9,011 nt of DNA from an uncultured Selenomonadaceae bacterium (GTDB taxonomy: Bacteria; Bacillota; Negativicutes; Selenomonadales; Selenomonadaceae). Made by a program: the position numbers and the translations under genes. Positions 55 to 5,661 of this stretch are shown one piece after another; the stretch's first letter is position 1, and the number at the start of each line of letters is the position of its first letter. Location of the stretch: assembly GCA_958415865.1 (NCBI GenBank), contig CATYZV010000058.1, positions 1-9,011 on the forward strand, written 5' to 3'. Below the pieces are notes generated by a model. The model did not search any database, had not been told where the DNA came from, and worked only from the letters and a program-made list of their open reading frames with translations.

Positions 55-1761
55 ATGGATCCCAATCTGAAGATAGCCTTTGGCCTTATCGGCGGGCTTG
101 CACTCTTTCTCTATGGTATGAACGGCATTAGCGATTCGCTGCAGAAGGTAGCGGGCGAGCGCATGAAGAAAATTCTCGGCCTTTTGACGAAAAACCCTGT
201 ATTCGGTGCACTCGCCGGTATGCTGGTTACGGCAGTATTGCAGTCTAGCTCGGCTACCACGGTAATGGTCATCGGTTTTGTAAGTGCGCGCCTTATGACG
301 CTGCCGCAGGCTATTTCCGTAATCTTCGGTGCTAATATAGGTACGACGATGACGGCTCAGCTCATGGCATTTAAATTGTCCAACTACATCTATCCGATCA
401 TCTTTGTCGGCTTCTTGATGAATTTCATCGCCAAGACGGAACGCGTCAAGAATATCGGTCTTGTAATCTTCAATTTCGGCCTCTTATTTGAAGGTATTGA
501 AATCATGGGGCACGTCATGAAACCGCTGGCTACGAGCCCGTTCTTCGTCGATCTGATGGGACAGGTGGCAAATACTCCTATACTCGGACTGCTGCTCGGC
601 GCAGGCATGACTATCGTCGTACAGTCCAGTTCTGCTACCATCGCAGTACTTCAGAACTTCGCTTCGCAGGCAGGTCCTGACGGTGTGTCTTCCATCATCG
701 GCCTCACCGGTGCGATTCCGATTCTACTCGGCGACAATATCGGCACGACCATCACGGCTCTCTTGGCCTGCATCGGACAGTCTAAAAATGCACAGCGCAC
801 GGCTGTGGCTCACTCTGTATTCAACATCTCCGGCAGTATCGTATTCCTGTGCATAATCCCTTTCTTCGCTCAGTTTGTGGCATGGATCTCCCCGAAAGGA
901 CCCGAACTTGAAATCATCGCCCGCCAGATCGCTAATGCGCACACGGCATTCAACATCACGGCGACGCTCATCTGGCTGCCCTTGATTCCCGTAATGGTCA
1001 AAATCGTCAAATTCATCATCCGCGGCGAAGATGCCAGTGAAAAAACTTCTTACGAACCGCATTTTCTCGACAATAAAGTACTAGGTCAGCCTTCCGCTGC
1101 TATGTACCTCGTTTCTAAAGAACTGGAACATCTGTCCGGCATGACGACCGATATGATGACGAAGCTGCGCGACTCTATCTCCGGCAAAAGCCAAGCTGTC
1201 GCAGCATTTAATGACAGCCATCAGGGCGTAAAAGCTCTGCAAGATACCATCGCAGATTACATCACACATCTATTCTCCCGCGGCAGCCTCACTGACCGGC
1301 AGGCAGAACAGACAGCAGGCTTATTATTCGTGGCAAACCACATCGACCACATCGCTGACAGATGCGGTGAAGTGAATGATTTTACCGTCAACGCCCGCCA
1401 AAACGGCAAAGGCTTATCCGATAACGCAATAAATGAAGTTGAAGAATGCCTCGACATCAGCAAGAAAATGTTCAGTCAGGCTATGCTCGCTGTAAAAGAA
1501 GGCAAAGCAGAAGCTGCTAAGGCTGTATCCACTGAAAACCACGAACTGCACCAGATTCAAAAACAGTATTACCGCAACCACCTCGACCGTGTTCACGACA
1601 ATTCCTGCGACCCTTCATTGACTACAGATTACGCTTCCATGCTTTACTCTATGGACAGAATGGCAGATAACTGTGTCGGCATTGCTGAAGAAGCTATGGA
1701 CCATGCAGCATTTGTCAACTTGGAAAAACCTGATTTCGCTGACGAGGGAGGCAGCAAATGA
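55..1761 (+). CDS. Na+/phosphate cotransporter family protein with C-terminal PhoU-like domain
   Basis: This is a secondary transporter predicted to bring inorganic phosphate across the inner membrane with sodium. It is 568 aa, normal for the bacterial NptA/YjbB-type family. The membrane part (about residues 5-325) holds the two inverted repeats typical of the family. Each carries a QSSSAT motif (residues 63-68 and 190-195) followed by a G-NIGTT motif (GANIGTT 92-98, GDNIGTT 226-232), which line the substrate and sodium path in the family. From about residue 350 to the end the protein is helical and hydrophilic, with the spacing of a PhoU-like domain, probably a cytoplasmic regulatory tail. 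The ATG at 55 follows a strong ribosome binding site, GAGGTGG at 44-50. Its stop overlaps the next gene by ATGA, so the two are translationally coupled. The exact ion and substrate are inferred from the family. Confidence 0.93.
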   Translation: MDPNLKIAFGLIGGLALFLYGMNGISDSLQKVAGERMKKILGLLTKNPVFGALAGMLVTAVLQSSSATTVMVIGFVSARLMTLPQAISVIFGANIGTTMTAQLMAFKLSNYIYPIIFVGFLMNFIAKTERVKNIGLVIFNFGLLFEGIEIMGHVMKPLATSPFFVDLMGQVANTPILGLLLGAGMTIVVQSSSATIAVLQNFASQAGPDGVSSIIGLTGAIPILLGDNIGTTITALLACIGQSKNAQRTAVAHSVFNISGSIVFLCIIPFFAQFVAWISPKGPELEIIARQIANAHTAFNITATLIWLPLIPVMVKIVKFIIRGEDASEKTSYEPHFLDNKVLGQPSAAMYLVSKELEHLSGMTTDMMTKLRDSISGKSQAVAAFNDSHQGVKALQDTIADYITHLFSRGSLTDRQAEQTAGLLFVANHIDHIADRCGEVNDFTVNARQNGKGLSDNAINEVEECLDISKKMFSQAMLAVKEGKAEAAKAVSTENHELHQIQKQYYRNHLDRVHDNSCDPSLTTDYASMLYSMDRMADNCVGIAEEAMDHAAFVNLEKPDFADEGGSK

Positions 1762-2600
1762 TGAGCCGAAAATGGTTAATCGCTCTAGCCGCTATTGCCG
1801 CAGCGGCAGTCATCGCCGGCTGCGGAGGCAAATCTTCATCACTGCCCGACCTTTCTTCCATGGGCGATATCCACGCCACAGCACGTGAAGAAGGTTCCGG
1901 TACGCGTGCTCAATTTGAAGCATTGACCGGCAGCAGCGAAAAAGATGCCTCCATCGTCAAATCCACCGACGAAGCCGTGCAGAAAGTCAGTGAGGACCCC
2001 GATGCCATCGCCTACGCCGCCTTTAGCTCAGTCAAGCAGCTAGACGGCGTAAAGATACTTGCAGTAGACGGCACAGCACCTTCCCCGGAAACCATCCGCA
2101 AAGATGAATATCCGCTGACGCGCAATTACTATCTGTGCTGGAGCGGCGAGCTTTCCCCTGCCGCGCAGGATTTCCTGACCTACATTCAAGGTGCAGGACA
2201 GGCTATAATCGGCGACTATGCTATACCTCTGGGCAATGCTGAAACATTTCTCTCCGACCGGTCGGCAGGCACAGTCAAGATAGCAGGCTCATCTTCCATG
2301 GCTCCGCTGATGAAGGCACTTGCCGAAGGATACGCCAAGCGCAATCCCAATGCCGAAATCGACATTGAAGTAACCGACTCCACAGACGGCATCAACGCTG
2401 CCATGGAACACAAAGCAGACCTCGCCATGTCCTCGCGCGAGCTGAAGGATTACGAAAGTGAACTGCTCAATAAAGCAGCTGTTGCCCACGACGGTATCGC
2501 TATCATTGTCAGCAAACAGAATCCATTGACCGGTCTCACCAAAGATCAGATTAAAAACATCTTTGACGGCACTTGGAAAAAATGGGCTGACCTGAAATAA
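1758..2600 (+). CDS. PstS-like phosphate-binding lipoprotein with circularly permuted domain order
   Basis: This is a 280-aa exported substrate-binding protein of the PBP-like/PstS type. A signal peptide ends in the lipobox IAGC (Cys22). Residues 43-50 read REEGSGTR, the phosphate-contacting loop that lies mid-chain in ordinary PstS. It is followed by segments typical of the PstS C-terminus (DAIAYAAFSSV 82-92, YPLTRNYY 118-125, GQAI 147-150). A short linker then leads to segments typical of the mature PstS N-terminus: GSSS 177-180, DSTDGI 197-202, DLAMSSRELK 211-220, HDGIAIIV 234-241 and IFDGTWKKWADL 268-279, where the chain stops. All phosphate-loop elements are present once, in swapped order. 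The start is the ATG of the ATGA overlap with the symporter; GAGGGAGG at 1744-1751 lies 6 bases upstream. A second ATG at 1761 is also possible. Phosphate as ligand is inferred from the loops; delivery to the adjacent symporter is a hypothesis. Confidence 0.88.
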   Translation: MMSRKWLIALAAIAAAAVIAGCGGKSSSLPDLSSMGDIHATAREEGSGTRAQFEALTGSSEKDASIVKSTDEAVQKVSEDPDAIAYAAFSSVKQLDGVKILAVDGTAPSPETIRKDEYPLTRNYYLCWSGELSPAAQDFLTYIQGAGQAIIGDYAIPLGNAETFLSDRSAGTVKIAGSSSMAPLMKALAEGYAKRNPNAEIDIEVTDSTDGINAAMEHKADLAMSSRELKDYESELLNKAAVAHDGIAIIVSKQNPLTGLTKDQIKNIFDGTWKKWADLK

Positions 2601-2614
2601 AATGCTATAACTCA

Positions 2615-2656
2615 AAAAAGTAAAGCTGTAAAATTCGCAGCTTTACTTTTTATTTT
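2615..2656 (+). terminator. Rho-independent terminator after the phosphate operon
   Basis: A perfect 14-bp stem (arms 2615-2628 and 2638-2651, core GTAAAGCTG/CAGCTTTAC) encloses a 9-base loop. The 3' arm ends in five T and runs on into TATTTTA. The A-run on the 5' side makes it symmetrical, so it could also stop leftward transcription. It lies 15 bases after the stop codon of the binding protein. Confidence 0.92.
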
Positions 2657-2757: not shown

Positions 2758-3153
2758 TCATACGGCTGTGTGCCAATGCTGCATAAGCTCGCTCGTTTGC
2801 GGCAGGAGGATTTCCTCGTAATTGTCCAGCTGGTAATTCGTCCGGCTTAGCATACTCTGCAATGCCGATATCTTCTGCCTAAGCTCCGACTGAATTTCTT
2901 CAATCAAATCCCTGCGCTGCGTGGAAGTCGCATTGCCCCGCTGTGCCAGTGCCATGTAGTCGATGATCTTTTCCAGCGGCATTCCGATTGATTTCAGGTT
3001 CTGAATCATCTCGATCCACTGCACGAAACGTTCATCGTAAATGCGTATGCCGCTCGACTTGCGCGGCACGGGAGGAATCAAGCCGATGCGCTCATAATAG
3101 CGCAATGTATCCGTCGATATATTTGTCTTTTTTGCAATTTCACTGATGTTCAT
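2758..3153 (-). CDS. MerR-family transcriptional regulator (cysteine-free, AdhR-like type)
   Basis: This is a DNA-binding activator/repressor of 131 aa. Residues 1-39 form the MerR winged helix-turn-helix: MNISEIAKKTNIS, then the hallmark TLRYYER (16-22) and GLIPP, then GIRIY in the wing. A second helix pair follows (about 44-66), and then a long amphipathic helix (about 79-115) expected to be the antiparallel dimer coiled coil. There is no cysteine, so metal or thiol sensing of the MerR/CueR/SoxR kind is unlikely. The effector is unknown. The chosen start is the ATG at 3153, because GGGGAGG at 3163-3169 lies 9 bases upstream; the in-frame TTG at 3159 would be too close to it. It follows the second MerR gene in the same direction, 50 bases downstream of its stop. 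Probable targets are the redox genes to the right (inference). Confidence 0.88.
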   Translation of the reverse strand: MNISEIAKKTNISTDTLRYYERIGLIPPVPRKSSGIRIYDERFVQWIEMIQNLKSIGMPLEKIIDYMALAQRGNATSTQRRDLIEEIQSELRQKISALQSMLSRTNYQLDNYEEILLPQTSELMQHWHTAV

Positions 3154-3178
3154 CACCAAAATCCTCCCCGAAAATAAT

Positions 3179-3207
3179 TATTTACCAATAGCACTAAAAC
3201 GTGTCAG
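3179..3207 (-). promoter_or_regulatory. Candidate sigma-A promoter for the first MerR gene
   Basis: On the minus strand, CTGACA (3202-3207) and TAAATA (3179-3184) are separated by 17 bases and lie upstream of the ribosome binding site of the MerR gene that starts at 3153. The -35 box is inside the 13-bp palindrome at 3200-3212. The -10 box overlaps the perfect 12-bp palindrome AAATAATTATTT (3172-3183). Both could be regulator sites. The call rests on consensus matching only. Confidence 0.4.
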
Positions 3208-3212
3208 ACACG
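3200..3212. repeat. 13-bp palindrome overlapping the stop codon of the second MerR gene
   Basis: CGTGTCAGACACG is a perfect dyad of 6-bp arms around one base. The minus-strand TGA stop of the upstream MerR gene (3204-3206) lies inside it, and GGCACC follows on the plus strand. It may be an operator for the downstream MerR promoter, or part of a dispersed repeat; similar TGTC-GACA palindromes with GGTGCC flanks occur as repeats in other Bacillota, from memory. Confidence 0.55.
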
Positions 3213-3596
3213 GCACCTGCTTCTTTTGCTTTTCTTGTTCTTATTATCCTTCTCGATCTGATAGGCCAGATAGTCGAGCCTGGACAGGTATTTTTCTTTG
3301 AAGTGAATTTCGTCGAGCAGAGCGCCTCGCTTGCTCTGGAGCATGCGCAGCCGCTGCCTGTCATTTTCCGTGCTTTTATCTTTTTTCAGCAGCAGCGTCA
3401 TATACATTTCAGTTTCCTCGCTCGTAAAGCCAATCTCGTGCAGCGTCATGATCAGGCTTAGATTTTCCAGGTCGGAATCGTCATACTGCCACGCGCCCAT
3501 GACCTTTTTCACCGCGCCGCACAGTCCCCATCTTTCGTATTCATCGAGGATTTCCATCGGTATCTTGTAGCGGCTGCAAGCTTCTTCCTTTGTCAT
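3204..3596 (-). CDS. MerR-family-like regulator with degenerate helix-turn-helix
   Basis: This is a protein of 130 aa, related to a conserved group of small MerR-like regulators in anaerobic Bacillota. The N-terminus MTKEEACSRYKIPMEILDEY replaces the usual TLRYYER signature with EILDEYERWGL (residues 16-26). It continues with GAWQYDDSDLENLSLIMTLHEIGFT, the second helix-turn-helix-like pair and wing. A long charged helix follows (about 80-118), probably for dimerisation, then a basic tail (KNKKSKRSRCRV). Cysteines are at 7, 26 and 128. The ATG at 3596 is preferred: AAGGTGA at 3602-3608 is a good ribosome binding site, and the in-frame GTG at 3603-3605 lies within it. The last codons and stop fall in the 13-bp palindrome, so the tail may be acquired. 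The protein may regulate the flavodoxin/reductase cluster immediately upstream of it; the signal it senses cannot be told from sequence. Confidence 0.82.
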   Translation of the reverse strand: MTKEEACSRYKIPMEILDEYERWGLCGAVKKVMGAWQYDDSDLENLSLIMTLHEIGFTSEETEMYMTLLLKKDKSTENDRQRLRMLQSKRGALLDEIHFKEKYLSRLDYLAYQIEKDNKNKKSKRSRCRV

Positions 3597-3685
3597 AAAT
3601 ATCACCTTCGTTCTTTGTATTTCAGTTATATTCTAATACAGCATAGGCATAATATCTAATACTTATATAAAATACCAAACAATGC

Positions 3686-4210
3686 CTATTGCGCATACCT
3701 TATCTGCTTTCGCAGTTTGAGCCTTTTAGATATAAACTGAGCACAGCCTCCGGTGAAAGCTCCTGCAATAGTGCCTGCGATGAACAGCAGCGGAAAATAA
3801 GCGATGATGGTCCATGTGCCTGTGATAGCTGCAGCCGCGGCAAGCTGCCCGATATTGTGGCAGACGGCTCCGCCGATGCTGCTGAGCCACAGATATTTTT
3901 CCGGCACGCCGCGGCGCAATAGCAGCATTGCAGCCAAGCAGAACACACCGCCTGACAGACTGTACGCCAGTGATACCATGCTGCCGCTGAATACGCTGCC
4001 CAATATTATCCGCGCCGTCAGCATCAAAAATACATCGCGGGCACTGTAATGGTACACGGCATAAACGGTTATGATATTGGCAAGCCCTAGCTTTACGCCC
4101 GGCAACGGCAATAGATTCGGCAGCCTGAGCTCCACGATGAAGATTATCAGCGACAGCGCTGTCAGCAAAGACAGCTGCACTAGCTTATCTGTATTGAATT
4201 TATATTCCAT
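3686..4210 (-). CDS. Gx transporter family membrane protein (EetB-like)
   Basis: This is a 174-aa integral membrane protein with about six hydrophobic segments (near 10-28, 42-56, 60-76, 78-98, 108-129 and 134-155) and a basic C-terminus. LPGVKLGLAN (36-45) after the first helix is the hallmark of the family named Gx transporter, or heptaprenyl diphosphate synthase component I (Hpre_diP_synt_I). The fold resembles the S-components of ECF transporters. Despite the older name, an isoprenoid synthase role is doubtful because it is a polytopic membrane protein. The homologous gene in the flavin-based electron-transfer loci of Listeria and Lactiplantibacillus is called eetB (from memory). The ribosome binding site AGGGAG lies 5 bases before the ATG. 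The NusG-II gene ends 18 bases upstream, so the two are very probably cotranscribed. Confidence 0.85.
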   Translation of the reverse strand: MEYKFNTDKLVQLSLLTALSLIIFIVELRLPNLLPLPGVKLGLANIITVYAVYHYSARDVFLMLTARIILGSVFSGSMVSLAYSLSGGVFCLAAMLLLRRGVPEKYLWLSSIGGAVCHNIGQLAAAAAITGTWTIIAYFPLLFIAGTIAGAFTGGCAQFISKRLKLRKQIRYAQ

Positions 4211-4228
4211 AAGTACTCCCTACCTTCA

Positions 4229-4594
4229 TCACTTTGCCGCAGCATCCACGCTGCTATCGCCGGCGAACTGAATCACTAAATGATTGGGCAGGCAGACGAT
4301 GGGCGGCGCATCATGCTTCAACACGCCCATCTGTACACATAGCCTATCCGGACAGTCGGCATCAGCTATGCTTATCTCATTGCGCTGCACTGACACGGTA
4401 TTGTAATGACCTTGATATTCTACCTTAAACTGATACGGCTCATCGACTTTTGACAAGTCAATCGTCTGCAATATCTTTCCGTCCTGTACAATTTCTACTG
4501 TATCTTGGCTGTGCTGAGCAAAATAAAAATATATCCCGCCTGCCAGCACCATCAAAAGCAGATAAATGCCGCCGTACAATTTTAACCTTGCCAT
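4229..4594 (-). CDS. NusG domain II-containing membrane-anchored protein (EetA-like)
   Basis: This is a 121-aa protein with one N-terminal membrane helix (about 8-26) and an extracytoplasmic domain of the NusG domain II family. Its hallmark pattern is present: DADCPDRLC (Cys81, Cys86) and PIVCLPNHLVI (Cys101). It has no KOW/NGN transcription-factor domain and is not NusG. Such proteins are regularly encoded beside ApbE and Gx genes, or near rnf clusters, and the equivalent in flavin-based extracellular electron transfer loci is eetA (from memory). The ATG at 4594 overlaps the TGA of the upstream ApbE gene as TGATG, so translation is coupled; an in-frame TTG at 4597 is the alternative start. 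Its biochemical activity is not known. The three cysteines may form a disulfide or bind a cofactor (inference). Confidence 0.85.
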   Translation of the reverse strand: MARLKLYGGIYLLLMVLAGGIYFYFAQHSQDTVEIVQDGKILQTIDLSKVDEPYQFKVEYQGHYNTVSVQRNEISIADADCPDRLCVQMGVLKHDAPPIVCLPNHLVIQFAGDSSVDAAAK

Positions 4595-5661
4595 CAATGC
4601 ACCACCACCGTCTTCAAATTGTTATATCTGGCGAAAAGCTCAAAAGAAACTGCTATGCCTTCTGTAATATAAATCTCCTGCTCAGCAGTCAGCAGTATCA
4701 TCTCAAAATCGCGGTGCTCCTGCCAGTAAGCTATCGCATCATCTTTGCCCGGTACGAACATAGCCGTCGACAGTGCATCGGCAGTTTTGCCTTGCGGCGC
4801 GATTATCGTAACGGATAATACTCCGTTGTCCACGGGTTTTCCTGTAGCAGGATTGATGATATGGCCGTATTTTCTGCCGTCAGCTCCGATGAAAAATCTT
4901 TCATATGCCCCGGAAGTAACTACTGCGCAGTCAGCAATATCTACTATACCCAGATACTCACTGCTGTCAGGCGATTTTATGCCCACGCGCCAGTTCGAGC
5001 CGTCCGGCTTTGTGCCTAGTGCCTGAACATTGCCACCCAGATTTATCAGAGCTGAACAAATGCCTTTTTCCTTCAATAAAGAAATCACTTTATCACCGGC
5101 AAAGCCCTTGCCCACAGCACCTAAATCCAGCTCCATGCCTTCGGGCAGAGAAATCGTATTGCCCTGCACAAAAACTTTTTTATAATCGACTAATCCGAGC
5201 AGCCCTGCCAGCTCATCATCAGACGGTATGCGGTACTGCCCTGTGGTAAAGCCCCATGCCTTGACTATCGGATATAGCGTCGGCTCCAAAGCACCGCCTG
5301 TCCTCCCCGCCATCTCCAAGGCAAACGATACAGCCTCAGCCGTATCTTCATCGACAGATACAGCCCTGCCGCCGCTCTTGTTTACAGCGTAGATATCGCT
5401 GTGCTCATCCGTCGCCGACAATAGCTTTTCCAAGCGGTAAATCTCCCGCTCCGCTGCCTCAAGCCCCGCCTCTCCTTTCGCTCCGTAAGCCGTCAGCGTG
5501 ATCTGCGTATCCATCGCATATACTGTCTTTTCATGCTGTTCATACGGCAGTACGAAAAAACTGCGGTATACCATGCCTGCACTGACGCTGATTATAATGA
5601 TGAGCAGCAGGCACAGCCATATTGATTTATGCTTCCATATGCCGATTAATTTTGCAGGCAT
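4594..5661 (-). CDS. apbE: FAD:protein FMN transferase (ApbE/FmnB-like), membrane-anchored
   Basis: This enzyme attaches FMN, taken from FAD, covalently to Thr/Ser of exported flavoproteins. It is 355 aa, normal for the family. An N-terminal membrane helix (about 13-36) has no lipobox cysteine, so the catalytic domain is held on the outer face of the membrane. The family motifs are intact: YAMDTQITL from residue 48, LDLGAVGKG 178-186, LINLGGN 205-211, VTSGAYER 248-255, HIINP 267-271, and TADALSTA 293-300, the last with Asp295 and Thr299 at the Mg2+-binding positions. The ATG at 5661 follows a strong AAAGGAG site. The flavodoxin gene ends 42 bases upstream with no terminator seen, and the NusG-II gene overlaps its stop. 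The usual FMN-acceptor signature (S/T-G-A-S/T) was not seen in any other protein here, so its substrate is probably encoded elsewhere. Confidence 0.94.
   Translation of the reverse strand: MPAKLIGIWKHKSIWLCLLLIIIISVSAGMVYRSFFVLPYEQHEKTVYAMDTQITLTAYGAKGEAGLEAAEREIYRLEKLLSATDEHSDIYAVNKSGGRAVSVDEDTAEAVSFALEMAGRTGGALEPTLYPIVKAWGFTTGQYRIPSDDELAGLLGLVDYKKVFVQGNTISLPEGMELDLGAVGKGFAGDKVISLLKEKGICSALINLGGNVQALGTKPDGSNWRVGIKSPDSSEYLGIVDIADCAVVTSGAYERFFIGADGRKYGHIINPATGKPVDNGVLSVTIIAPQGKTADALSTAMFVPGKDDAIAYWQEHRDFEMILLTAEQEIYITEGIAVSFELFARYNNLKTVVVH

Follow-up and report, generated by a model that had tools for sequence, protein, structure and literature searches.

A circularly permuted PstS-type protein encoded in overlap with a Na/Pi symporter gene: a candidate for binding-protein-assisted phosphate symport

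In textbooks, phosphate-binding proteins work with the Pst ABC importer. For secondary transporters, passages of PMC12344293 state that, before TAXI-GltS, the TRAP and TTT families were the only ones known to work with a soluble binding protein. In TAXI-GltS, which is proposed there as a binding-protein-dependent secondary transporter, the binding-protein gene shares 3 bases with the gene of a Na+ symporter. The same passages note that additional classes would test the need for an elevator mechanism, and part of PMC6325988 presents the NaPi-II transporters as modelled elevators. A natural circularly permuted substrate-binding lipoprotein is also on record, namely TpMglB-2 of Treponema pallidum, as described in an excerpt of PMC4990184.

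The window analysed here is a stretch of 9,011 nucleotides from an uncultured Selenomonadaceae bacterium, in which the gene for a permuted PstS-type protein (cpPstS) overlaps that of a Na/Pi symporter (Table 1). As far as the passages of PMC12344293 go, TAXI-GltS is the closest published parallel and follows the same logic, with an overlap of 3 bases against 4 in the window; it differs in that its binding protein and symporter are unrelated to those of the window pair, that fusions exist, and that the ligand is glutamate rather than phosphate. TpMglB-2, judging from the PMC4990184 excerpt, differs from cpPstS as a sugar-binding protein of another type with another permutation site, and probably represents a separate event. 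The glycine-betaine-binding protein OpuAC (2b4l) has 7% identity to cpPstS and another ligand.

Table 1 Features of the symporter–cpPstS unit in the window
Feature	Position	Strand	Basis
Na/Pi symporter (Na_Pi_cotrans) with C-terminal PhoU domain, 568 aa	55..1761	+	Pfam, NF037997
GAGGGAGG, Shine-Dalgarno-like, in the last symporter codons, 6 bases before the PstS ATG	1744..1751	+	Sequence; function inferred
ATGA, 4-base overlap: PstS ATG 1758-1760, symporter stop TGA 1759-1761	1758..1761	+	Sequence
Permuted PstS (cpPstS), 280 aa	1758..2600	+	Sequence, domain and structure-template matches
Lipobox I-A-G-C, residues 19-22, after hydrophobic signal peptide; Cys22 is the predicted lipid anchor	1812..1823	+	Sequence
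Former C-terminal PstS half, residues 37-162, with R43, S47, G48, T49	1866..2243	+	Alignments
Joint of old C and N ends, about residues 158-171; limits approximate	2229..2270	+	4gd5/4H1X alignments
Former N-terminal PstS half, residues 167-280, with S178-S180, S208, S226-R227	2256..2597	+	Alignments
Terminator-like hairpin, 15-bp stem, T-rich 3' arm, after the two-gene unit	2615..2651	+	Folding

Positions 1758-2600 of the window encode a PstS-type protein whose halves stand in C-then-N order. Residues 39–151 of cpPstS align to residues 154–270 of the canonical PstS chain 4gd5, and residues 166–279 to residues 32–146. The sequence-only reading had proposed this inverted block order from the motifs, and the alignment agrees with it: REEGSGTR lies at 43–50, GSSS at 177–180, MSSRELK at 224–230, DGIAII at 245–250 and IFDGTW from 268, and the chain ends at the point where an ordinary PstS continues into REDGSGTR. 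The alternative that each half matches the same PstS segment in ordinary order was looked for by alignment and not borne out; because each half corresponds to its own part of PstS, the two parts being complementary and their order inverted, the permutation stands as observed. Compared with canonical PstS (4gd5, 4q8r, TIGR02136), both halves align with conserved ligand motifs, in inverted order. The NCBIfam model TIGR02136, in which the N half precedes the C half, matches cpPstS in two stretches, the best being query 167–279 on model positions 35–155. Since the whole-protein score of 145.6 lies below the curated cut-off of 206.6, we call the protein a permuted relative rather than file it as a TIGR02136 member. 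PBP_like_2 (PF12849) matches it with 124.7 bits against a gathering cut-off of 27.

Residues R43, S47, G48, T49, S178, S208, S226 and R227 are kept in all 27 symporter-class proteins and all 70 others compared, and position 179 is T or S in every one of them; mapped by eye, these positions correspond to the phosphate ligands of E. coli PstS. In the predicted model of cpPstS, the joining segment is mostly loop. A newly placed signal peptide and lipobox in front of the RE-GSGTR half had also been claimed, and a hydrophobic signal indeed runs into the lipobox that ends in Cys22. A loose lipobox-like pattern is found in 25 of the 27 symporter-class proteins. The protein is a predicted phosphate-binding lipoprotein, and its predicted lipid anchor has moved from the old chain start to the old chain middle.

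The crystal structure 4H1X (Streptococcus pneumoniae SP_2084, PstS 2; released in 2012) has the same C-N order and matches cpPstS collinearly over the full length; the predicted cpPstS fold matches it as well. Together with the 4gd5 alignment and the permuted relatives described below, this supports the permuted-PstS interpretation. The 50 listed Foldseek/VIA-align matches contain no ordinary PstS, which excludes nothing because order-dependent aligners may miss it. A streptococcal relative in our sample, from Streptococcus varani (L073), lies in a Pst operon, whereas cpPstS pairs with a symporter. The accompanying claim that no permuted PstS had been described holds for the papers covered but not for the structure archive: limited searches of the open-licence PMC literature found no paper describing a permuted PstS, which is weak evidence of absence, and none naming 4H1X, while a protein of the same order has been in the PDB since 2012. 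The permuted fold is therefore already in the PDB, and the symporter partnership is the new element.

A genome scan yielded 584 candidate loci encoding a relative, of which the best 80 were chosen by similarity to the window protein. All 80 of these carry a C-N permuted PstS, and 97 C-N proteins were counted across the fetched loci; as a control on the order-calling method, 12 PstS encoded beside PstC genes were called ordinary N-C. A protein 96% identical to cpPstS was found from another source. In a less biased sample of 61 Bacillota genomes, 47 had any match and 3 showed the split permuted pattern (table read by eye). One scan of viral contigs found no relatives. Phylogenetic analysis with the halves in a common order placed 62 permuted rows in one clade (SH-aLRT 95) that excludes the 35 ordinary rows and the 10 tandem-unit rows. 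This tree does not include 4H1X itself, Streptococcus being represented by L073; the Pst-class permuted rows were thinned at random to 35, and one long-branched ordinary PstS, six ORFs with the N half only and one near-identical tandem protein were left out. Every tree in this work comes from a quick search, with SH-aLRT as its sole support measure. The permuted clade is most simply explained by a single permutation event. By its collinear match to 4H1X and the common descent suggested by the tree, cpPstS is assigned to this clade.

The sequence-only reading had derived the permutation from a tandem duplication and suggested a search for a double-length intermediate, which gave a divided answer. 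Six proteins (P0243–P0248) carry two complete ordinary PstS units per chain (N-C-N-C), almost identical to each other in P0246, but they group with ordinary PstS and were rejected as a double-length relic of the permuted clade. Their existence shows that the permutation step is feasible; placed as they are among ordinary PstS, they do not demonstrate ancestry. Eleven of 240 proteins have 1.5 units, ten as N-C-N and one as C-N-C (P0097, P0100–P0103, P0118, P0122–P0124, P0223 and P0228). One outer half is of the ordinary type and the other of the permuted type, and these mosaics could therefore in principle fold either way. In P0253 (622 aa), a permuted PstS is fused in frame to a PstC-like permease; since its PstS part stops early, it may be a frameshift product. 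Two permuted pstS genes occur in a single Pst locus in two cases, in tandem in L067 (394-2330) and at either end of the locus in L055 (6986-14529).

The upstream gene (55-1761) is assigned to the Na/Pi symporters by its two PF02690 domain copies, its two QSSS motifs (residues 63 and 190) and its scores (206.8 bits for PF02690, 57.1 bits for the PhoU family PF01895, and an NF037997 match above the cut-off). By sequence, it distantly matches structures of SLC34 member 2a, e.g., 9z60. Its predicted model has only moderate confidence (pLDDT 77.7) and places the QSSS motifs at helix breaks; a Foldseek search with this model gave no match at E < 0.001, with PhoU structures ranking first. The ATGA overlap at the junction suggests translational coupling of symporter and PstS. 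The hairpin behind the unit has a folding z of -5.66, and none of 200 shuffles was as stable; it was not among the results of a consensus terminator scan. A promoter scan was uninformative, with 4 matches against 4.7 expected.

Pairing with a symporter recurs among the relatives. Among the 80 best loci, 52 are pst loci, where pstC is accompanied, as far as the contig permits, by pstA, pstB and phoU and in many cases by a two-component system. A Na/Pi symporter gene is a tight neighbour in 23, one locus has both settings and four have neither. In all 23, the symporter gene shares the strand of the PstS gene, standing upstream of it in 6 cases and downstream in 17, and the spacing ranges from a 143-base overlap to a 118-base gap, some of the overlaps being exaggerated by start-codon choice. 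The window symporter shares the two QSSS repeats and the PF02690 match with the Na/Pi cotransporter family (PF02690; SLC34/NptA). As a comparison, 45 other Bacillota genomes had a symporter match; of the 29 family members taken from them, none has a PstS within flanks of up to about 1.5 kb, two of which end at contig ends.

The 23 paired PstS, that of the window and three without a symporter neighbour (L005, L006 and L012) form a single 27-row clade, with SH-aLRT of 98 in the first tree and 100 in the second; the three unpaired proteins were labelled with the paired ones in the second tree because the first had placed them there. Two of these three genomes encode a symporter elsewhere (59% and 51% identical), and only distant symporters were found in the third (G012). 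In the first symporter tree, the 24 paired symporters, including that of the window, form one clade together with the symporter of L027 (SH-aLRT 100). In L027 (868-6911), 155 bases separate this paired-clade symporter from a Pst operon that follows it and includes a Pst-class permuted pstS, possibly an intermediate arrangement. The two partners have diverged in parallel: over 23 pairs, symporter distances correlate with partner-PstS distances with r of 0.85, a value reached in none of 2000 permutations. Across 11 genomes, symporter distance correlates with the paired PstS with r of 0.93 and with the Pst-operon PstS with r of 0.26, a contrast that gene transfer or mixed Pst-operon PstS paralogues may partly explain. 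The truncated symporter of L013 was left out of this distance correlation, of the insertion comparison and of the enlarged tree described below. In 25 of the 26 symporter-class genomes, PstC scored above the cut-off, each time with its own adjacent pstS (permuted in 14 genomes, one of which also has an ordinary one, and ordinary in 11), so that the symporter-paired PstS is an extra one. Pit-type transporters gave no match in 19 of 23 genomes.

The pairing is not obligate. Three further similarity searches, over 12, 200 and 151 genomes, selected genomes by the symporter and added 26 with a close one. An adjacent permuted PstS was present in 10 of them, two as partial or broken frames (L189 and L182), and absent in 16, two of which are cut on one side by a contig end. 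The symporter family can thus do without a PstS neighbour, and the nine changes that the paired label requires on the enlarged symporter tree, from which four symporters near other Pst loci were left out, imply that pairing was gained or lost repeatedly. The 11 PstS found in the 16 unpaired genomes all have PstC as a neighbour, which leaves no sign of a stray partner. A search for PstS–symporter fusions scored 7996 candidates, of which 18 proteins passed and none contained PF02690. An insertion at symporter residues 205–211, with Q205 in 22 of 23 paired proteins and the stretch missing in 26 of 29 controls, was considered as a docking element and rejected as specific to the binding protein, since unpaired close relatives have it too. 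By its gene neighbourhoods, the predicted binding protein is recurrently coupled to a secondary transporter in the manner of TRAP, TTT and TAXI-GltS, with 16 of 26 close symporters lacking it.

We propose that the permuted phosphate-binding lipoprotein hands phosphate to the Na+/phosphate symporter of the overlapping gene, making a binding-protein-assisted symporter, and we give this reading roughly an even chance of being right. Phosphate would be caught outside the cell between the two lobes of cpPstS, which a lipid anchor would hold at the membrane; the loaded protein would dock on the symporter and hand the phosphate over, and the symporter would move it inward with Na+. What the data show is the sequence, the order of the halves, their conservation and the co-inheritance of the two genes; that cpPstS binds phosphate, carries a lipid anchor and is translationally coupled to the symporter is inferred, and the handover most of all. 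Such a pair would be the sodium-driven equivalent of the Pst ABC importer and would follow a logic similar to that of TRAP, TTT and TAXI-GltS. The unpaired symporters, the lack of fusions among the scored candidates and the retained Pst ABC importers count against the handover.

The same retained importers are the starting point of a competing explanation, in which the paired lipoprotein serves as an additional phosphate-binding protein of a Pst ABC importer encoded elsewhere, the symporter being no more than a neighbour under common regulation. With PstC in 25 of 26 symporter-class genomes, the lipoprotein could serve that importer instead, and the 52 pst settings among the best 80 loci suggest that the permuted fold presumably works with PstCAB; the L027 layout, with a paired-clade symporter just ahead of a Pst operon, also fits. 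However, none of the 25 Pst loci lacks a pstS of its own, and the paired PstS form a separate clade whose distances track the symporter better than those of the Pst-operon PstS do in the 11 genomes compared. We consider this explanation unlikely, though by no means far-fetched.

The PhoU domain on the symporter and the occurrence of close symporters without the lipoprotein, which may then modulate rather than be needed, are consistent with a different role: sensing phosphate or buffering it at the surface, so as to regulate the symporter or keep phosphate near it, with no handover and with PhoU relaying the signal. PhoU would lie in the cytoplasm and the lipoprotein on the outer side, and this separation by the membrane argues against such a relay. 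The 23 paired loci gave one response-regulator match and no histidine-kinase match when two reference proteins were used as queries. A sensor or buffer seems to us distinctly improbable. Relatives with broken or partial frames (L189 and L182) raise the further thought that the cpPstS gene is a remnant, decaying or without function, or that two PstS pieces were wrongly joined in assembly. The 97 C-N proteins, the 96% identical protein from another source, the conserved ligand positions and the folded 4H1X speak against both, and we find this scarcely credible; as an assembly artefact, it is refuted by the C-N order in all 80 loci and by the solved 4H1X structure.

The window pair is a concrete candidate for a further class of binding-protein-dependent secondary transporters, with a permuted PstS that recurs next to a sodium symporter rather than with the ABC importer. 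Searches of the open-licence PMC literature returned nothing relevant on a PstS–Na/Pi symporter pair, again weak evidence of absence. The permutation characterises an entire PstS clade and is not described in the PMC literature searched, and the standard PstS model scores its member in the window below the cut-off.

Polyphosphate kinase (ppk) genes were found in 8 and corA genes in 10 of the 26 symporter-class loci, at least one of the two in 13, and neither in the 54 other loci of the 80-locus scan; Pfam confirmed four of the polyphosphate kinases and two of the CorA-type channels, the rest being assigned by similarity. Neither gene lies near the window pair. These neighbours suggest a phosphate-to-polyphosphate cluster, and because ppk and corA join it, the pair probably feeds polyphosphate synthesis in some relatives. 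The ppk gene adjoins the pair in L004, L007, L009, L016 and L024, lies just before it in L017 and is further off in L005 and L021; in several loci, ppk is followed by a CorA gene. Downstream of the pair in the window, Pfam identifies two successive MerR-family regulator genes on the minus strand (2758-3159 and 3204-3605). Beyond them, also on the minus strand, three genes at 3686-5661 resemble by eye those for a Gx-type membrane transporter, a NusG domain II protein and an ApbE-type flavin transferase.
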